Positions 3,205 through 39,600 of a stretch of 64,000 nt of DNA are shown in pieces (position 1 is the stretch's first letter; each line of letters starts with the position of its first letter). Location of the stretch: contig JAIXMN010000013.1 in NCBI GenBank assembly GCA_025716815.1, positions 682,001 through 746,000 of the forward strand, written 5' to 3'. Below the pieces are notes generated by a model that did not search any database, had not been told where the DNA came from, and worked only from the letters and a program-made list of their open reading frames with translations. The translations under genes were made by a program, and so were the position numbers. The stretch is from Dichotomocladium elegans. Its lineage: Eukaryota; Mucoromycota; Mucoromycetes; Mucorales; Lichtheimiaceae.

Positions 3205-4416
3205 ATGGCAACATTCTCTGCCGAAGACCAAAAGAAATACCGTATCCAAGAATTCATACTCGAACTACTACCTGAGGGTTATCAGCAGCTTTACAAGTCC
3301 AACGTTCCGCAAGTCTTTATTCCAAGAAACGACCGTGCAACTTTTACCCCCGCAAACCTACAACGCCTCAAGAACCGCGCACAAGTCCTAGCAGACAAAT
3401 TCGTCAAAACTGTAACCATGGATCAGAGCAAGATGCTGGACACGATCCACGCAATGCTAGCCCAGATGCAAGCCCAACAAGTGGAGTTGACTGCGTTACG
3501 CACAGCGGCAAATAAAGGGTCAATTTCAGCAATCAAGCCCGTGCAGCCCGATGTGTTTCGAGGTGAGCGTTCGTCGGCCAAAGTGGAGGCATGGCTCCAT
3601 ATGGTAGATAAGTATCTCGAATACACTGGCCTCGAAGACAAGCCGCGCGTAGCGTTCGCTTCGACACTCCTTCGTGATGGTGCGGCCACCTGGTGGCGGC
3701 ATCTCGAAACTACCATCGATCCGTATGAGGGCGGCAACAAGACTCCTGCTACCTGGCAGGACTTTCAAGAAATGTTTCGCGCAGAGTTCAAACCACGGAA
3801 TTCCGACAAGCTTGCTCGCCACCGCCTGCACGAACTCAAGCAGCGCAACATGCCGTCGCGATCTATCCATGATTATATTGTTGCTTTCCGTAACATTATG
3901 TTGGACCTACCCGGAATGCCGGACGAAGACGCGATCCACTATTTTTTGAAGGGGCTCGAGTACGACCCCTGCCTCCAGGTCGCTCTCCATAGGCCAAAGA
4001 CCCTACACGATGCTTACGAAGCAGCTGAAGAGTACGAGTCCGTGCAGCAATACACCCAAGAGCTGCGCGATCCCCTCCATCACCCGGTCTCACCACCACA
4101 CCATGGCTCGAACTCTAGTCCATCGCCGCAGAACGGACCAACGCCGATGGATCTTGACGCCATCCGCCAAATGCCAAGGCAGCAGTGGAACCAAGGTCGA
4201 CAGCAGTGGCGCAGCAACGGTGCATTCCGGAACCAGTACCACTCCGGCCCTGCAAATGGCCAACTTCGGACAACGAACAAGCTGTGCTACAATTGTGGTG
4301 GTAGAGGCCATCTCGCTCGCAATTGCAGCTCGCCCCCCTTCGGGAGAAGCCACCAAGGCCCGGTAGCATCGTCCTCCACTGGGGGTGATTTAAAAGCCAA
4401 CGCGCGTCAGGATTAA
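3205..4416 (+). CDS. gag: Gag polyprotein of Ty3/gypsy element
   Basis: This 403-residue protein forms the particle of the retrotransposon. Residues about 100-290 match the retrotransposon gag family pattern (AWLHMVDKYLEYTG, ATWWRHLE, the RLHELKQ block and the FLKGLEYDP block). Near the C-terminus a single CCHC zinc knuckle, CYNCGGRGHLARNC, would bind RNA. The first ATG after the 5' LTR is used, only 11 nt past its end. The stop TAA (4414-4416) is preceded by a -1 frameshift heptamer at 4389, so a fraction of ribosomes should continue into pol. Confidence 0.93.
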   Translation: MATFSAEDQKKYRIQEFILELLPEGYQQLYKSNVPQVFIPRNDRATFTPANLQRLKNRAQVLADKFVKTVTMDQSKMLDTIHAMLAQMQAQQVELTALRTAANKGSISAIKPVQPDVFRGERSSAKVEAWLHMVDKYLEYTGLEDKPRVAFASTLLRDGAATWWRHLETTIDPYEGGNKTPATWQDFQEMFRAEFKPRNSDKLARHRLHELKQRNMPSRSIHDYIVAFRNIMLDLPGMPDEDAIHYFLKGLEYDPCLQVALHRPKTLHDAYEAAEEYESVQQYTQELRDPLHHPVSPPHHGSNSSPSPQNGPTPMDLDAIRQMPRQQWNQGRQQWRSNGAFRNQYHSGPANGQLRTTNKLCYNCGGRGHLARNCSSPPFGRSHQGPVASSSTGGDLKANARQD

Positions 4417-4432
4417 GGGGAGTCCCGACGCG
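4389..4432 (+). promoter_or_regulatory. Programmed -1 frameshift signal between gag and pol
   Basis: The heptamer T TTA AAA (4389-4395) is in the gag frame and fits the X XXY YYZ rule for -1 slippage. A 7-nt spacer follows. CGCGTC (4403-4408) can then pair with GACGCG (4427-4432), with a possible extra G-U pair outside and two G-C pairs beyond a bulged A inside. Slipping back one base enters exactly the frame that stays open through protease. The gag TAA lies within the stem-loop. All elements are seen directly; use by the ribosome is inferred from known retroelement practice. Confidence 0.85.
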
Positions 4433-7400
4433 TACCACACCATCCCTTTGCACCATGGATCAAGATACAAGAACACATACGCCGATTGCCGCAACAGCGC
4501 CTCTAATCGACCTCTCCGAGGAGCCCACTTCACAAGACCAGCACATTACATTAGAAGGAGCACAAGAGGACATCAAACATATCAAATCATTATATTCAAT
4601 AAACCAAACCCAGTTGCCCTTGTATTCCATGGTGTGTAATGGCCATAATATCGAGGTCCTCCTGGACAGTGGAGCGACGGGAACATACGTGACGCCTAAG
4701 GTTGCGCAAGGATTACCAGCACGACCTGTGTCAAATCAAGAGGTTGAAACCGCTGGTGGCCATACATTGGTGATCAAGGAGGTGGTGACCCTCTCACTGA
4801 ATGCTGGTGGTCTTATACACGACGTTCCCGCTTATGTGTTGGACACGAAATTCGATTTGATACTGGGACGCGATTGGATCAAGCGCATGCGACCTGCACC
4901 AGATTGGGATCTCGACACCTGGCGCATTTCACAGAATGGTAAAGAGTACACACTTCACCCCAAATACCAACGCAACATCCCAGAATTGTCCTACCTGATC
5001 TCCCACCGCCAGGTACAACGACTCGAACAACAAAAACAAGTCGCCGACATGTTCCTGCTTTATCTGAAAGACACACTCACGAACAAGAAACCCATTGCGG
5101 ATACCAGTGTCGACCGGCTGCTCGCTGACTACGAAGACGTCTTCCAGGATAAACTACCAGGGCTCCCCCCCGACCGTGAAGTTTCGCATGTCATCGACAC
5201 CGGCGATGCAACACCTATCAATCGGTATCCGTATAAGATGAGTCCTCGGGAGTTGGATGAGTTGCGTAGGCAGCTCGATGAGCTTACTGGAATTGCGCCT
5301 CATAAGACCAAGTACATCACCATGGGGAGCTCCGGTGCTCTTCGTACGCAAGAAAGATGGTTCCCTCCGCCTTTGCATTGATTACCGTGCACTAAATGCT
5401 GTGACAAAGAGGAACTCCCATCCACTCCCTCGGATCGACGAGTGTCTCGAGAGACTTGCTGGGGCGCAATATTTTTCAAGCATCGACCTCCGCAGCGGAT
5501 ACCACCAAGTAAAGATACGCGAAGAAGATATCCCAAAGACGGCTTTCAACACTAGATATGGTTCGTTCGAGTGGCGTGTACTCAGTTTCGGATTGACGAA
5601 TGCGCCACCAGTCTTCCAATCCATGATGAACAAGACACTTGCCGACTATATTGATAGGTTCGCGCTGGTGTATCTCGACGACGTACTGGTGTATTCCAAA
5701 ACCAAAGAGGAGCACTCCCAGCACGTACGCCAGGTCCTCGATCGCTTGCGTGAAGCCAAACTGATAGCCAACCGCAAAAAATGCTCTTTCTTCCAAACGG
5801 AGCTGGAGTTCCTGGGTTACCAATTGGGCGCTCAAGGTATTCTGCCGTCAGTCAAGAAGGTAAAAGCTATTCAAGAATGGCCGCAGCCCACCAACGTCCA
5901 GGAGGTGAGGCAATTCGTCGGGCTATGCTCGCATTACCGTCGCTTCATTCGTGGGTTCGCGTCCATTGCTGCTCCTTTGACTGACCTCACGCAAGGAACC
6001 GGTGCAAAAACAAGAGCGATTGTTTGGACTCACCATTGCCAAGCCGCTTTTGACGAACTCAAGTCACGCATGGCCAGTGCTCCAGTCCTACAGCCACCCA
6101 ATCAGGACAAGCCATTTATTATTGAGACAGATGCTTCGGACTATGCCAGTGGGGGTGTGCTGCTGCAGGAAGGTCCTGATGGGCTGCTACATCCTGTCGC
6201 ATTCGAGTCGAAGAAGTTTTCCCTCCAGGAGCGTGCGTATCCTGCCCAAGAACGAGAACTTCTTGGAATCCTTACGGCGCTGCGTGCCTGGCGCTGTTTT
6301 GTTGAGGGGCGAAAGTACACCGTCCGCACTGACCACCATCCGTTGCGTTACTTCCGCACACAGCGCAGACCCACTCCCCGACTTACCCGATGGATGGCAG
6401 AACTCGAACTTTACGATCCCGACATCGAATATAAGCCCGGCCGAGAAAATCGTGTCCCTGATTTGCTTTCCCGACGTGACGGTCCCCAATGCCCGACAAC
6501 CGAAGCCCCACTTGAGCCCGAGTATCTGTACGCTGTCAAAGCAATCCAAGACTCCGACTGGCCCCGTTTCTATACCCGCAAGGCAGAAGAATGGCCCGTT
6601 ATCTACAAGGATATTCTGCTTAAACACCAACAGCAATTCGCGGTTCATAATGATCAGGTATTTCGCAAGGTGAAAATCAATGGACAAGAGGAAGAGGTAC
6701 GTTATGCCCTCTTTGCTCGAAGGGCAGACATCGTACAGCACTTCCACAATGGGTTCGGACACGCCGGCCGTGAGACCATCTTCGATTTGATCAAGAAACG
6801 TTGGTGGTGGCCAAACATGAAAACGGACATTCAAGACTGGCTCAAAAACTGCCCGCAATGCCAACTTGCTGCGAATGCGGATCGCCACACCCACCATGGC
6901 CCAATGCGGTTACAGGAAATACCACCAGTATTCTCGCGGTGGCATCTGGACTTTATAGGCGAATTACCCACTACCGTTCGCGGGAATCGATGGATTCTTG
7001 TCGCTGTGGACTACACTACAAATTGGACAATCGCACGAGCCATCCCGGACGCCACTGCACAAGCGATTGCCGAGTTTCTGTTCACTGAAATCGTCATGCC
7101 ATTCTCTTGCCCCGTGGAAGTGGTTACTGACCGCGGTGCAAATTTTATGTCCAAGGTGCTGAATACATACCTCGGTCGCCTCAAGGTTAACCATCAAGCA
7201 ACATCCGCTTTCCACCCACGGACTAATGGCAAGGTCGAACGTACTAATGGCATCCTGAAACAAATGCTTCGCAAGTACGTCAACGGTGCAATATCCACGT
7301 GGGACGATTATCTGGACACGGCTGTTTTTGCCTGCCGTATCCGAAAGCACCGCACAACTGGTGTTAGTCCGTACTTCTTGGTTTATGGTGTGGAACCCCG

Positions 7401-7926
7401 CCTACCCGGTGACATACTTCACCCATTTTTAGCGAAAGATCCCGATCCTGCCCCGCAAGATCTCCTAGCTGACCGCAAACCCTCCTTACTTCGTCTCCGC
7501 GAAGCTCGTGCATCTGCCGCCCAGCGACTTTCCGCCAATGCTCAACGGGACAAAGCTACCTGGGATGCCGTGCTCAAGCCCCAGGTTTTCGCTATTGGAG
7601 ATCATGTCCTAGTGCGTCACGAAAATAAGCTTGGCCTTGAGTACAACTGGAAGGGTCCTTTTGTGGTAATTGCACGCAACCTCGATACCGATATCTACCA
7701 GTTACGCGACATGAACGGTTCTCTTTATAATTCCTGGGTCCATACTGATCGCCTCCGTCCCATACACCATACCACCGCCCCGCAATCCAGCTGGTACGAT
7801 CCTGCCTCCTCACGTGCTGCCGATCGCCGCACTCTTGCTACGAACGCATTGTTATTGCTCGAGGACGACCAAGTGTTTCGGGAGAGGGTATTGTCGTGGC
7901 CAGATACCGCTGGTCACACAAACTAA
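4396..7926 (+). CDS. pol: Pol polyprotein (PR-RT-RNaseH-IN), frame broken at about 5283
   Basis: Entered from gag by -1 frameshift; an internal ATG at 4455 also exists. The aspartic protease has [11 protein letters not shown] (D at 4665) and LILGRDW. Reverse transcriptase includes [18 protein letters not shown] and the catalytic YLDD (5671-5682). RNase H has [12 protein letters not shown], and integrase has an H-H-C-C zinc region (about 6745-6870) and a D,D,E core ([22 protein letters not shown]). The frame used for protease ends at 5381, while RT onward is in the next frame; protein continuity moves between frames at about 5280-5290, beside GAG CTT ACT G. This is either a one-base indel, a sequencing error, or less likely a +1 slip. 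The final 12 codons run into the 3' LTR. Confidence 0.9.
7880..7888 (+). other. Candidate polypurine tract
   Basis: The purine run GGGAGAGGG lies 3 nt before the 3' LTR, the expected place for the plus-strand primer. It is inside the pol reading frame. Confidence 0.6.
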
Positions 7927-28411: not shown

Positions 28412-32784
<4,373 letters not shown>

Positions 32785-34044
32785 AGTGTGCACAGCTGCT
32801 AGGAATTCATGTTCTTTCAGCCCAGCGATGGGCATTACAGTACGAGAAGGACCCTGACAGTATCTTTAAGAAACCTAATGCGACGGATCGTTCGCGTATT
32901 CTCAATGAGGAGCATAAGAGCGTTATTTTAGAATGCATTGATGAGAATCCATCCACTGTCCTAGAGCAGCTGATGGAGCAACTGCTCCAAAGATTTGAGG
33001 GTCTCAAAGTATCTAAAACGACGCTTCATCGATTTATGAAAAGCGAAAGCAACGTATCATTGACTATGGCTCGGTTTCAGCCTACAGACAGGAATAGTGC
33101 TGCGAAGATCCAAGAGCGCCTTGACTGGGTGTGCAAATGGGACAGGACCGACATCGACTTTAGAAAAAACTGCATTTTTCTTGACGAGTCTGGATTCCAT
33201 AATAATATGAAACGCAGCATGGCATGGTCCAAGAAAGGGACTCCTGCAATGGTCACAATACCAAAGATAACCACAATCTTGGGAGCAATGGCAGCACCAG
33301 GGATCATTAATGTTGTTTGAAAATCCCACAGTCCCCACTCAAGAAAAGAAAGAGGGTAGATCAATCTGAATCACGAGCAGAGGAACCGTAACTGGACATT
33401 ATCTCAGCTTCCTTAAGGCCACGATGGACGAGATGGGTAAGTATGAACATATGAATGACCATTATTTGGTGATGGATAATGTACCTATCCATAAGGCTGA
33501 GGATATCGCTAAATACATCGAGTCTCGAGGATATCGATGTGCTTACAGAATTTTCAAGAAGTTTGTCACGAAGTTTAGTTGTTGGTATAGATCGTCTAGG
33601 TTTTTTGTCGTTTTTGCTTGAAATTTGAAACATAAACGTTTAGCCTTCCAAAACTATTCTGGTGTAAAAAAGAAGCTAAGAAAGACTCACCTATAGCCTT
33701 GACTGAAAACTTTTGCAACTATTGCCTTTAAATTTTGACGAAAAACCAAGACGATCTATACCAACAACTAAACTTTGTGGCAAACTTCTTCTTGAAAATC
33801 CTGTATCTTACACCATGCTCGCCTAAACTCAATCTGATTGAGCAGTTTTGGTCAGTCGTCAAGAGCAAAATAAAACGCAATAAATTCTTGGAAAGACGTT
33901 GATGACCCGAATTAGTGAAGCATCCAATAGGTTAACGCTGAGTGATTTCGAAGGGTTTGTTTCTCATTCTTACAGATGTTTAGCCAACTGTCGTGACAGA
34001 CAACAATGTGATGCGGCTTTCCAGGTACACAACAAAAGTAAGTA
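32785..34044 (+). pseudogene. Tc1/mariner-like DDE transposase, broken
   Basis: An HTH-like segment (LSAQRWALQY) is followed by a second helical region (NPSTVLEQLMEQL, KVSKTTLHRFM) and a DDE_3 core. Catalytic motifs are FLDESGFH (first D), LVMDNVPIHK (second D) and, beyond an insertion, LNLIEQFW (third acidic residue, about 34 after the second once the insertion is discounted). Breaks include a stop and frame changes at about 33318-33430, a 258-bp MITE at 33546-33803 and a further frame change near 33895. The C-terminal part (LSDFEGFVSHSYRCLAN) ends at about 34044. Terminal inverted repeats of the element itself were not found. It is inactive as it stands. Confidence 0.85.
33546..33803 (+). 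mobile_element. MITE with ~65-bp terminal inverted repeats, TA target site
   Basis: The left end CAGAATTTTCAAGAAG and the right end CTTCTTCTTGAAAATCCTG are near-perfect inverted repeats that extend about 65 bp inward. TA lies immediately outside each end (33544-33545 and 33804-33805), as for Tc1/mariner-type insertion. Removing the element plus one TA rejoins the transposase frame around the third catalytic residue, which confirms the boundaries. The 258-bp element encodes no protein of its own. A related but truncated copy occurs at 35959-36094. Confidence 0.92.
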
Positions 34045-34908
34045 GAGTATGCGACGTTGATTTACAATCCTATCACTCTGATATCTACGTACATGGTATC
34101 AACTAAAGACGAGAACAATGTGAAAGCATATGTCATATTAAAGAGCTTGATGAGTTAGCTCTCGGTGGTGATTATTACGAGCATGTGCAATGGTATTGAT
34201 GGGAGACGAAGGCGGATTATGTGGTTGTGGGCGTACCAAGGAATACTAATAAGAGTCGATGGTACGAACAAGACAGTCATGGCGTCTGAAGGCGCAAAGG
34301 ATCGTGAGTACAGGGGCCGACGGTTGACGAAAGAGTGTCCTAATCAATGTCGGAAAGCGGAGTCAAATGGTAGCTGGATGTTGCTTCAAGGGCAAGTGTC
34401 GTACGGGGAAAGGGAAGAGCGATTTCTAGAAGTCCTTGTCCGAGTTCAAGGAGGCTTGTTTTTACAATGGCGGAAGGATATTTTTGAGAGGCTCTGACAT
34501 GACATTGGGCTGGTAGTATGAAAGTTTTCTAAAACCAGCTTGATGATATTAATATAACGTTGGTGCAAGGAGGACTTGGCAGTGAAAACGGAGTAGCAGA
34601 AGCGCCTGCCACCACGAAAATACAATAACATCTTATCATCAATCCAACAAAAAGGATGCCTTCGAGGAGCAAATCTTTAGGCAAGAAAAGAGCAAAATTG
34701 ATATCAAGAAGAGACACCAATTATTGATCACATCATGGCTTTTCGATACTGAGCACTTAAAGATATTGTATATTGTAAATAAAGAGCTATACTTGATAAA
34801 CAGTAGTATACAGAAGATAAAGGAATAGTACTGTTGCGCTCGTATCCACCGTTGCAAATGTCCTTGTCCAGACCACATATGGTGTTTTAGTTGTATTTAA
34901 GGTGGACA
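34045..34908. other. Intergenic, no gene recognised
   Basis: A 110-codon open frame (34165-34497) and shorter ones show no known domain. The right part is strongly AT-rich. Confidence 0.5.
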
Positions 34909-35344: not shown

Positions 35345-36645
35345 ATCCTCGTTCTCGCCGCTGTCTTACATTCCGTTGTTCTGGCTCGGCTGAATGGGTC
35401 CTAACACCAGCAGCAGGGGATTCCTTAGGGACCACCGTCCCAACGAAAGCCACTCTGCGGAATCTTGCTGGTACCTCGCCCTGGACCCGGATATTGGTCG
35501 GTGATAGTATGCATGTTTAGACAAGCTGCCAAATCACGGTTCCAATACCGGTATTGCTGTTGGCCGGCATCCGGTTGGTATTTATGCATCTACAGAGTTC
35601 AAACAATGCGTTGGATTGTGACTTGTAAACATTCAAACTTTATACCTGAGCAATCCATGGCATAATGCTCTCTCATTCCCAGGTGCAGGATTCGGTCTTG
35701 GGTTATTACTCCACCGGAACGTCCTCAGGCTGTCTTCCTCACATGTGGGGCAACACCTGCTTGTTTTATATTCGTCATAAGGTAGACAGGTATGTGATAT
35801 GACCTCAGCATCTGACGAAGGCCTTTGCCACGAGTGGTCTCGTGGGCTACAGACCAGTTCCCCATGGGTCAAAACACAGCCAATGGAAAATTTTGGTGCA
35901 AACCGTCGCCTTCTGATATACGCGTTCAGGCGCAGCTTGCGAATGAGAGGGCGGACGGGCTAATAAAGTCTCACCTACAGCCTTGACTGAAACCTTCTTG
36001 CAATTATTTGCCCTTTGAAGCAAAAACGACGAAAAACCTGGACGGTCTACACCAGCAGCTAGATTTGTGGCAAACTTTCTTCTTGGAAATCATGTACTTC
36101 TTGGCCTTGCGGGACTTGTCCTGTTGGGCTTTGGTGTACCGAAACTTCAAAGGGGTCTGAGGGATGGAACCAGCGCCTGCGCAGAATGAAAGGTCTCTTC
36201 TACCTGGGTCAACGGTAACCAGTGGACCTGTAATCGCCTCGCGCCGCTGACTTGTCAAGGCACCGTAATACACTGTATCCTCCTCTACTGGAGTTGGCCT
36301 TTGCTCGGATTCGTGACCAACATCTCTCTCGCTCTTGAGAATCGTGATTCCTACCCCGTCTGTGTACCTAGTCCACCGGAATTGCAGTGTTTCACCCTCT
36401 TGACTCCTGAAAACTGTGTTGTCCAGGCCAACAAGCTGTCCCAAGTGTACCCTTGAATGAACTTGTCTTCTTGATGGCATCTTGCGGCCTAGGAAATGTT
36501 CACATACAATCTTGGGATTGATCATCATGTAGCACGGTGGAAGAGATCGGCGGATGGGGAGGCAGTTGAAAGCGGTAAGTCTAAGCCTTGAAAGAGAATT
36601 GCAAGCTGGTGAAATGACTGGAAATGGTTTTGTGGCTGGGACTTG
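35345..36645 (-). pseudogene. Fanzor1-like (eukaryotic TnpB) nuclease, degraded
   Basis: Fanzors are eukaryotic homologues of IS200/IS605 TnpB, RNA-guided nucleases carried by transposons. Motifs occur on the minus strand in family order: AFNCLPIRRSLPPCYMMINP (36580-36514), RYTDGVGITIL, the RuvC-I block LVTVDPGRRDLSFC (Asp codon 36208-36210), LKFRYTKAQQDK, then after an insertion RPLIRKLRLNAYI, GNWSVAHETTRGKGLRQML, DEYKTSRCCPTC (zinc-ribbon half, about 35741-35776), FRWSNNPRP, HGLLRYK, and RuvC-III WNRDLAACLNM (Asp 35533-35535). GEVPARFRR follows in another frame. Breaks include a MITE remnant at a TA after KAKKY, loss of about 70-100 residues, and at least three frame changes or stops. The N-terminal third was not found. 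No function is likely in this copy. Confidence 0.82.
35959..36094 (+). mobile_element. Truncated MITE of the same family
   Basis: These 136 bp match the right half of the 33546-33803 MITE, including CCTTGACTGAAA, GACGAAAAACC and the terminal block ending CTTCTTGGAAATCATG. TA (36095-36096) follows the right end, as expected for insertion at TA. The left half and its TIR are missing, apparently lost together with the adjacent Fanzor coding sequence. Confidence 0.85.
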
Positions 36646-36649
36646 GCAT

Positions 36650-39600
36650 CATAATGGTATTTATACCTGTTAATCCTGGTATGGATGTTATAGATGGGAT
36701 GATACCTTTGAGGGGGTGATTATTGAAGCGCTTCACCTATGAAGGCGTAGTTGCGACCAATGAGGTATGATCTGTGACAATGAAGATGATGTCGTGACAC
36801 TCAAGGGGGTCTGCCTTTGTACATGTGTACGTAAATCGAACTGATGTTTATTTGTAACAATTGTTATTTCAGTTGTTGTTGCGTTCTCCTATATTCTTAG
36901 AACTCGAGGCGACGATAGTGATACATCCCGTAGTGAGTTGATAAGCTCCGCTCCTCTGGACGCTGGTCCATGGCGGATAACCTTAAGCCACCATTGTAGA
37001 GACGACGATTAAATAGCAATCAATTGATACCTGCGGGTAATCTCAGTAAGGAAGGAACGTATCATTGTCGCGCAAATTCCCATAGAAAGACACTCGTGCT
37101 ACAAGCGTGTAATAGCTTGACTTGTCGAAACACGGATATTTATACTGGCTTGAATGGTTAAGAATATGTGTATGATGTCCTAATCGACAAGTTGTTTTAT
37201 AAACTTGGCATCGGGCATAGGGTTGTTTGGTGTGTCCATCAAGTTTCTTAGTACTCCTGTTGGGATGTTGCTTGGTAATTAAGGTCACATGATAGATGCT
37301 GGTCGGACTGTTACAAAGCGCTATTGCCCTACATGTCAATACTTGGTATTCGTTTAAAGCATTACGGTCTTGTAACACCGAAGTGGTATCAGTAGTGACA
37401 ATGTGGTTGGGTGCACTCCTTAATGTGTCTGCATATGACTATTTCTGGATCAACAGGACCTCGATTTTACTATAAGTGAACGGGACTTGGCAACTGATCT
37501 TCTTTACCAAATCCATCCTCTTCATCTCTTGTGTCTTGAACGGTATACAACCCTATCATACCGACTTGTTCCATTCTGCAACTCTCTAATATTCCGGATC
37601 CTCTGTAGATAATGATATCAGCCCGACTCAAGTGCCTCAAGAGGAGAGGATATGGGCTTTGGGTGGGACCGCGGTTTGGCTGCACCCACGCAGGTCTCAC
37701 CATGGCTTCGTCGAGGTGATTTGTTCGTCTGCTTCCTCCGTTGCTTCCCCTGATGTTTCTGCCGCTGGTGTTGTCGTTGGTCCGTCGTCGTCCCTCCTCA
37801 TTCCTTCCTCCAATCCTTCCTTCGTCGCATCCGCCGTCGACGCTCAACAACACCGGATCCTCCCTTTCATCATTTCCGCCATTGTTACCGCAATGGTATA
37901 CCTAGCTACCTTTGGGGTAAGTTGAAGGGTAAGAAGGGGCTGATATTTTCTGTTGACTAAAGGGTATGTCTCGGCCCTCTTATGCATGCGACATTTTATT
38001 TTACTTTATATGCGCCATAATTTTTATGAAAGGCTAGGAACATTTTGATTTGGAATACACGTGATACCAAGATCGGCATTGCGATAATAACATGTAAACA
38101 CGTTTGAGAGAACTATAATATATTGTCAACTACTTGACCCATAGGTTCAGGAAAGCCTAGTTTATCGTTGACATGGCCACGTCGATCGTAAAAAAAACGT
38201 ACTATCCATCGTGAAGTATAAGATGTGTATGGAAGAAAGAAGAATTGAAAGAATTTCCCTCTCCCTCCCTCAAAAAAAAAGTGCTGATGTATTTCAAGAG
38301 AGGTGGATTGATCTTACTTTCTTGGCCGATGCATGATTCTGTTTCAACAGATTTGCTTACGAATCTTCACTGTGCTCGATTTATTTTCGGATCAAATTAG
38401 CTTTCGGGACAGGGCCGGTGCATATTTTTATTGAAGCAAATGAACTAATTCAAGGGCCAACCCAATCATCATTTTCCATTGTGTACAAGTGCCATGCTCT
38501 GTAGTTCATTTCCACTGAGAAAAAGGAGAGCATATTGTATGTTCAGCGTACTGCAAATCTTCTAATTCTATATGCGGCGATACATGAATACCTCGAAGCT
38601 ATGGAAGCAGATAAACGATCCAGATGTACAACCGCCATAAAAAGTTCCATCCTAGCTACATCACTCGAGTGATTGTGCCTAAGTCTTGGAATAACTGAAT
38701 CGCTGAAATCGAGAAGCGACCTTTGTTCTTGACTGAGTTGTTCTGATGGAACGAGAACGAGAATTTGATTACGGTAATTCGTCTAGATGTTGCATGATCG
38801 TCTATCAAGGGTCAGTTCCGACAGGGTTATGTAACCTCCGAACGTCTCAGGACAGAGTGTGGGTGGAAGCCTCAGTGTAAGTCTAGCACTTGGCAATGAT
38901 CTAATATAAATCCCTGAGACCACCGAAGCAATAAATATATATTTTGAGATGAATGGTTCCTTTAAGGCGTAAAGAGACACCAGAAGGTACATTCTAATAG
39001 AGCAGCAGTCGAGACGCTGATTCTATCAGGATATATCGAATGAAAACATTTATATCATAATCCTCCCATAGATCGGTTAAGAATATTATATAGAGGAAAA
39101 ACCTTTGATGGTGAACATACTTTCACGCGACCAGCTATAAAAGTTGCTCCCTGGGCGTCACAAGTCGTGCTGTGAAATTGTCTGATAGTTCTTCAGTACT
39201 AAATCCATATATTCTATGAAGCGTTCTTCAGGGTTCATGAAGATCAAAGTAGAAACAGGGCTCATTTGCGTATGGATGATATGAATAGAATCCCGTACTT
39301 GTCTTTATGATTGGAAGCGAGAATAGCGCAGCATATCTCGAAACGGACTTCCGTAGTTCTATAATCTAAATCTTTCGGCCTGTACGTTTTGCCAGTATGG
39401 GCTTTTTCTCTTGCTCTAAAAGTGTATCTTGCTCAAATTCTTCTTGGTTACAGTTACTGAGTGACAAGCGACGTAAAAGATCTACTCGATACAGTTGATG
39501 CAGGTACGATTTTCTTCCGGGTGATATCGCTCTTGAAGTGTTTTAAGGGCATCACCAGCGACTATTGAAGTGATGGGGTTGTTTTCCAGAGGGAGCCATG

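Follow-up and report, generated by a model that had tools for sequence, protein, structure and literature searches.

Within the window, by which we mean the whole 64,000-nucleotide stretch of Dichotomocladium elegans DNA that was analysed, the relic Fanzor gene belongs, judging by homology, to a composite transposon of the Tc1/mariner type, now dead, at about 32.3-38.0 kb, of which it makes up one half. The element was read against a sister locus, L029 on contig C57, which carries a Fanzor gene on the plus strand (4063-6296) and a transposase gene on the minus strand (8635-7208). The window transposase (plus strand) and Fanzor (minus strand) also lie tail to tail, in the same order as in L029. 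The features are listed below; L031 is the reference copy of a family with a 639-aa Fanzor frame.

32296-32340, plus: transposase-side terminal inverted repeat (TACAC..TTTTTCAAA..GTCGCACC), matching L029 at its right end and the 639-aa family at its left end
32485-33545, plus: Tc1/mariner transposase, N-terminal and central parts (HTH_32, HTH_Tnp_Tc3_2, start of DDE_3), broken; from open reading frames, Pfam and L029
33545-33804, no strand: MITE-like insertion in the transposase gene, breaking the L029 homology at 7419/7420; repeat matches
33804-34878, plus: 3' part of the transposase gene and intergenic DNA, 79% identical to L029 6311-7420
35307-35961, minus: C-terminal half of Fanzor1 (GNWS, DEYKTSRCCPTC, NRDLAACLNM), frames shifted; from the match to 9cf0 and L029 homology
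35590-35645, minus: 56-bp intron (GTATAAAG..CTGTAG), at the same site in L029 and L031
35961-36095, no strand: MITE-like insertion, at which the Fanzor gene has lost about 180 bp of coding DNA; repeat family, homology gap at L029 5348-5528
36095-36655, minus: central part of Fanzor1 with the RuvC-I Asp, inside the open frame 36648-36007; 87.9% DNA identity to L029 4787-5348
36655-36656, minus: point at which the leader and N-terminal part of Fanzor drop out; gap relative to L029 3056-4787
37023-38024, no strand: right-end (Fanzor-side) region, last 40 bp or so with the terminal repeat lost; L029 homology
37878-37897, plus: candidate omegaRNA stem-loop 1 (SL1; GCCATTG-TTACCG-CAATGGT, 7 bp), from covariation
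37907-37919, plus: candidate omegaRNA stem-loop 2 (SL2; TACC-TTTGG-GGTA, 4 bp), from pairing only, without covariation of its own
37946-37960, plus: conserved box TTTTCTGTTGACTAA of the module, from the right-end alignment

Homology blocks running from 38024 to 32294 tie the relic to an L029-type element of about 5.7 kb, so that what is left amounts to the composite minus its outermost 40 bp or so on the Fanzor side. The right end is 76.6% identical to L029 1905-2834, with 93% identity over a further 30 bp at L029 1857-1886. The terminal inverted repeats of the relatives are imperfect (left TACAC..ATTTTTCAAAA, right TACTTTATTTTCAAAAA), and the window keeps one end. Outside the element, positions 29810-30097 on the minus strand presumably hold, as judged by eye, the first part of a host gene similar to O-acetylhomoserine sulfhydrylase, and a GT/AC microsatellite lies near 30.6 kb.

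The transposase open reading frames of the window span 32485-33621 on the plus strand. Their DNA is 81.8% identical to the L029 transposase block, protein matches were found elsewhere in the same genome, and Pfam returned HTH_32 (2.9e-5), HTH_Tnp_Tc3_2 (0.0012) and DDE_3 (0.0035), all below the gathering cut-offs. The 475-aa transposase of L029 matched DDE_3 at 1.8e-30 and Sleeping Beauty at E=1e-4. A preliminary description of this DNA had noted that Fanzor1 proteins occur in fungal transposons; its interpretation is supported, the relic being a broken Fanzor1 gene in such a transposon.

In that description, made from the letters alone, seven minus-strand motifs in family order had been taken for the remains of a Fanzor1 nuclease gene. 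All seven were located, in the order claimed: AFNCLPIRRS (36573-36544), TDGVGITIL (36363-36337), VDPGRRDL with the RuvC-I Asp (36213-36190), RPLIRKLRLNAYI (35953-35915), GNWS (35862-35851), DEYKTSRCCPTC with the RuvC-II Glu and the first zinc pair (35776-35741), and WNRDLAACLNM with the RuvC-III Asp (35544-35512). When all PDB sequences were searched, the open piece 36648-36007 matched the Fanzor1 of Parasitella parasitica (9cf0) at E=2e-19 and a Spizellomyces punctatus Fanzor (8gkh) at E=0.012, and piece 35959-35636 matched the Parasitella protein at E=2e-6, which upholds the family assignment. As to the profile check that had been proposed, a Pfam search with five relic pieces returned no Fanzor/TnpB family, its sole match being PfaD_N at E=0.16, and the PDB sequence search returned Fanzor1. 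A check by Pfam alone would therefore have overlooked the relic. No better match to an unrelated family was seen for the pieces in either search.

Both RuvC Asp codons reported earlier as survivors are present, and the list was incomplete, as the RuvC-II Glu is kept too. It sits in DEYKTS, within DEYKTSRCCPTC, and aligns with E541 of SpuFz1 when counted along the alignments (numbering from PMC10432273). The relic thus keeps codons for all three catalytic acids of the RuvC D-E-D set (VDPGRRDL, DEYKTS, NRDLAACLN), the first Asp and the Glu being placed by alignment numbering and the RuvC-III Asp by motif alone. The fourth zinc-ligand Cys is replaced by Arg (CINTNR, for CINTNC in the sister) and is kept in L029, L031 and L045. 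Because its zinc ribbon is incomplete, the relic is classed from its sequence as a pseudogene of the Fanzor1 family and not as a working member.

At the DNA level, the two Fanzor blocks of the relic share 83.0% and 87.9% identity with L029. The insertion announced earlier was found to be the MITE-like repeat at 35961-36095, where about 180 bp of coding DNA are lost. The N-terminal third is missing as well; the missing stretch corresponds to L029 3056-4787 (about 1.7 kb, leader and N-terminal third of Fanzor). With the N-terminal part gone and frames broken, the reading frame of the relic is not intact; exon 1 is open in L029 and L031. Frame changes had also been counted as damage. The frames are indeed shifted, except that one change is the 56-bp GT..AG intron, which is common to L029: the same site is found there at 5880-5935 (56 bp) and in L031 at 4024-4092 (69 bp). 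The intron was not located by sequence patterns in the related loci L045 and L043. Besides the intron and the third catalytic acid, the preliminary description had not recognised that the insertion is a repeat, that a transposase lies 2-3 kb away in the same element, and that there is a hairpin module at the right end, on the other strand (37.87-37.96 kb).

Of 79 DNA matches, 67 by our count fall in the MITE-like repeat at 35961-36095. The same repeat is inserted in both genes of the element, at 33545-33804 and 35961-36095; it has inverted ends of about 83 bp, and many of its matches are paired some 285-440 bp apart.

Between the relic and L029, omega was 0.72 over 162 codons, a value in line with a loss of constraint after inactivation. 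The Fanzor pieces might instead still be expressed as a functional multi-exon gene, and the survival of the catalytic acids, all three, and of the intron sites speaks for this. Such a gene is hardly credible given the loss of the N-terminal part, an insertion that has cost coding DNA, shifted frames and a lost zinc ligand, and given that omega is 0.17-0.19 in two unsaturated pairs taken between Fanzor subfamilies and 0.41-0.54 in three pairs within the second tandem subfamily. Taken alone, the relic is unremarkable, one more dead copy from a family that is already known.

In the genome (39.4 Mb, 122 contigs) there are at least 151 Fanzor protein matches, some loci being counted as two pieces. 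Intact relatives, which had been suggested as possible, do occur: 24 of the 150 matches listed have a stop-to-stop frame of at least 600 aa with no internal stop, and in 16 of these 24 the frame is exactly 639 aa. The L029 Fanzor matches the Parasitella protein (PpFz1) at E=7.9e-115, aligned along nearly all of exon 1. Its C-terminus is a repeat tail rich in R, G and Q (L029 6160-6296), whose length varies by subfamily (by eye). A homologue search returned seven proteins, the named ones being from Syncephalis, Bifiguratus, Mucor and Coemansia. For a host gene beside L029, the best named matches were in Fennellomyces sp. (57% over 95%) and Apophysomyces, in keeping with Mucorales. Pairs taken between subfamilies (n=4) gave pS of 0.72-0.79 against pN of 0.31-0.34, and by such codon comparisons Fanzor is under purifying selection between subfamilies. 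A 750-bp right-end piece of an L029-type element, 98.9% identical, was seen at L111 266-1015 (C57:714365-715114); it adjoins a protein-kinase-like open reading frame (by eye), has no left end within 4.1 kb, and is perhaps a one-ended copy.

The 639-aa family was compared at twelve loci including L031, three copies aligning in two or three pieces. Eleven copies are 98.5-99.6% identical to L031 over a unit of about 3.95 kb with sharp ends, and because the copies are near-identical and sharply bounded, the family is judged to be recently mobile. When the ends are read as TACACC..AAAGTA, a flanking TA is seen by eye on the left in 12/12, on the right in 9/12 and on both sides in 9/12. The thirteenth copy, L042, is 98.3% identical over 3.37 kb and is without the right end and the module. 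In this family, the transposase is reduced to its N-terminal piece and Fanzor exon 1 is open, so that, judged by reading frames, the nuclease has been retained and the transposase has not. The remnant is a 174-aa open frame (L031 709-1230, element positions 2-523) with the DNA-binding part and without the catalytic part; it could be a repressor or debris. A palindromic MITE with ends CAGTGGCCGC..GCGGCCACTG is nested at about 1760-1936 of L031, with the transposase fragment on one side of it and Fanzor on the other; another of similar kind is nested in the right end of L090 (both by eye).

When the right ends of the tandem families were aligned, a hairpin emerged whose stems differ in letters yet pair. 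A covariance model (CM) of the SL1/SL2 module was trained on the window, L029, L044, L045, L016 and L031, whose scores are consequently not independent; the window match, at 37873-37962, reached 97.6 bits with its own row in the training set. Weak further matches were obtained in L046 and L047 (28.5 and 29.0 bits). In an alignment of six sequences, SL1 shows double (compensatory) changes in five of its seven pairs, and 97.6% of the cells pair. In the larger set of 63 rows (57 distinct), 47 double-change cells were counted against 12.0 in shuffles and the covariation score was also higher, related rows being able to inflate this result; the stem is paired in 85.9% of the cells, against 13-44% in slid controls. 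The number of SL1 pairs with any double change was not above shuffles, either for the six sequences (5 vs 3.7) or for the 57 distinct rows (6 vs 5.7). An open scan of 5-bp helices paired above 75% gave 61 double changes for SL1 and at best 11 for a helix elsewhere. A third stem after SL2, suspected by eye, was rejected on that same best score of 11.

SL2 itself showed no covariation in the six sequences, its columns being invariant or unpaired only. Its UACC/GGUA stem can form in most modules, with a shifted register in L031; in the 63-row set, SL2 and the GTAAGTT that follows it are constant by selection of the rows and thus uninformative. The folding energies of eight modules were unremarkable (z -0.2 to -2.9), and Rfam returned no match at gathering scores for L031, L029 and L045. 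Downstream of the L029 Fanzor, where an omegaRNA would classically lie, the fold z was +1.0 for a stretch of 304 nt and 0.0 for one of 86 nt, with no sign of structure; behind the L031 Fanzor, it was -1.5 for 290 nt.

The pattern TACCTTCGGGGTAAGTT, allowing up to three mismatches, occurs 353 times in the genome against 118 for the reversed control, and 72 of its matches are exact; 60 of these 72 modules were extracted, seven more lie in loci already compared and five were left out. In L029 and in the window, the module occupies the strand opposite to Fanzor. It precedes the start of the L029 Fanzor by 2.0 kb; in the window, where that start is gone, it is 1.2 kb from what remains of Fanzor. 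Among the matches listed, Fanzor lies upstream on the same strand for 11 of the 72 exact modules and on the opposite strand for one (L029), and transposase is the only neighbour for 14, in all 14 upstream and on the same strand; 46 have neither nearby among the 150+150 matches listed, a class that is inflated because at most 150 matches of each type were considered. The 639-aa family falls outside the exact set as its SL2 differs, and there, in each of the twelve copies compared, the module comes after Fanzor and shares its strand. The C44 end (L110) gave no match to the element, so that no module could be located for the L048 copy.

One Fanzor-less element on contig C51 shows its left end at about 199190, then the transposase, the module at 200855 and the right end near 201041; two sequence pieces of it are separated by some 390 bp of unread DNA, too small for a Fanzor. 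This element and the occurrence of Fanzor in both orientations lead us to a plain layout of end, transposase, module and end, with Fanzor placed between transposase and module in either orientation. As Fanzor may stand on either strand relative to it, we call the module an orientation-independent guide-RNA candidate. Of seven ends measured, six have SL2 set back from the element end by 154-214 nt, and the deletion copy L044 has it set back by 61 nt; this distance counts against an omegaRNA.

The covarying hairpin is thus present both with and without a Fanzor, and its presence in Fanzor-less transposase elements counts against an omegaRNA; for this reason the module may belong to the transposase or to the element ends and have no relation to Fanzor. 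The window would then hold an ordinary relic of a Fanzor1-bearing Tc1/mariner element, the hairpins belonging to transposase biology (a 3' UTR or an end structure) and Fanzor being merely inserted, in either orientation, between the transposase and the right end. Elements such as the C51 example, the two orientations of Fanzor between the same two parts, and the TGCGAC/GTCGCA subterminal repeats at both element ends all suit this explanation. The letters of the SL1 stem, however, change fully with the pairing and much of the loop kept, which is unexpected for a protein-binding DNA site. Furthermore, the stem sizes equal those of published Fz1 omegaRNAs: SL1 has seven base pairs in three of these and SL2 four in that of PpFz1, the same as in the module here (PMC11423790). 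Nor is a scaffold without its nuclease exceptional, the Spu-1 element of Spizellomyces punctatus being known from 134 ghost loci with terminal repeats and omegaRNA and without Fanzor (PMC10432273). On balance, we hold hairpins of purely transposase origin to be possible but doubtful.

Since the stem sizes agree with PpFz1, and since scaffolds in terminal repeats and ghost loci have been published, the right-end module is read as probably an omegaRNA uncoupled from its nuclease gene. The overall explanation, a dead composite element with Fanzor1 and a right-end guide-RNA module, is given a probability of about 0.6. We consider more tentatively, at somewhat less than an even chance, that the module is a true omegaRNA of the Tc1 family itself, borne by Fanzor-less transposase elements and solo ends too, one set of Fanzor genes serving hundreds of guide-bearing transposons in trans. 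If true, the uncoupling of module and nuclease (opposite strand, about 2 kb upstream in L029, the window being arranged likewise) would represent a genetic layout that is new among OMEGA systems; a scaffold spliced to the flank would go further still.

An element of the L029 form, with its DDE transposase and tail-to-tail two-exon Fanzor1 nuclease, would be moved by the transposase through cut-and-paste, presumably at TA. The SL1/SL2 module, on the strand opposite to Fanzor and next to the conserved right terminal repeat, would be transcribed as a guide-RNA scaffold and would take its guide from the DNA just beyond the right end. Once it has bound this RNA, in cis or in trans, Fanzor might then cut the emptied donor site, upon which the element would be copied back.

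A side idea is that the scaffold is spliced, GTAAGTT after SL2 acting as 5' splice site, TGACTAAC as branch point and the terminal ..AAAG before TA as acceptor, so that SL2 would be joined directly to the flanking DNA as guide. Splicing would explain why SL2 lies so far inside the element end, and the joining would complete the UACC/GGUA stem. GTAAGT and TTTTCTGnTGACTAA are kept among three otherwise divergent right ends, and L031 keeps GTAAGT though an extra hairpin separates it from SL2. Between the box and the end, AG is scarce, with 1, 0 and 1 occurrences in L031, L045 and L029 against 5.0, 3.0 and 4.5 expected (P 0.014-0.031; when the terminal repeat is left out, P rises to 0.058-0.092); in 15 modules with a recognisable end, there were 17 AG and 73 GA against 84 and 89 in the flanks. 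The distance from branch point to acceptor is long, and AAAG is a poor acceptor. GTAAGTT belonged to the search pattern for the 60 extracted modules, and TGACTAA is kept in 34 of these 60, most of which are decayed. The exclusion of AG was rejected as proof of splicing, as the depletion is not specific: read outward, the opposite ends are also AG-poor in L031 (2 vs 7.5, P=0.005) and L045 (3 vs 6.9, P=0.037), those of L029 (P=0.13) and L049 (P=0.42) not being so. Because this control failed, splicing, highly improbable on the whole, is kept aside.

Among solved structures, PpFz1 (PDB 9cf0-9cf3) is the best match to the relic pieces and to L029, whose Fanzor has no match to PpFz1 residues 987-1095, the stretch in which we place its RuvC insertion (FRI). 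The published omegaRNA of PpFz1 is 75 nt long (PMC11423790), whereas here, in most of the copies measured, 154-214 nt separate SL2 from the element end. Spu-1/SpuFz1 and this genome have in common a Fanzor and many guide-RNA loci, here candidates, without Fanzor; that study found no transposase within the Spu-1 repeats (PMC10432273), whereas transposase, Fanzor and RNA module occur here in one element family. Unlike in Spu-1, the module of L029 and of the window is on the strand opposite to Fanzor. The SpuFz1 scaffold takes in the terminal repeat and reaches the very edge of the element, whereas SL2 lies further inside here, and the role of Fanzor for its transposon is called unknown in the discussion of the same report, where help in trans is suggested (PMC10432273).

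In our literature search, mostly of open-access papers, we came across no omegaRNA described as lying on the other strand from its Fanzor. The prefix PUl in names of Fanzor elements denotes an oomycete. In PGv-1, PUl-1 and PUl-4, Fanzor1 and a mariner-like transposase share one element with TA duplications, and the window element shows the same pairing of Fanzor1 with a mariner-type transposase (PMC3627910). The Tc/mariner-Fanzor1 examples of Bao and Jurka 2013 include viral and Hydra ones, the present one being fungal; Fanzor elements of Mucor, Rhizopus and Phycomyces are named there MuDR-like or unclassified, and parts of that paper make no mention of an RNA module (PMC3627910). For the Fanzor1 of a Spodoptera ascovirus, terminal repeat and target duplication are predicted to lie in the reRNA scaffold, and the reRNA extends about 15 nt beyond the duplication (Yoon et al. 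2023, PMC10711439). That element is non-autonomous, with Fanzor only, whereas the family here also has a transposase (PMC10711439).

One element family in one fungus thus combines a candidate guide RNA with a transposase that is intact and a Fanzor whose exons are open, and as tandem, inverted and Fanzor-less forms coexist in the genome, the use of guide RNA in cis or in trans becomes testable. A dead Fanzor1 relic is of a kind already known; what appears new here is an orientation-independent guide-RNA candidate in a transposase-Fanzor family.
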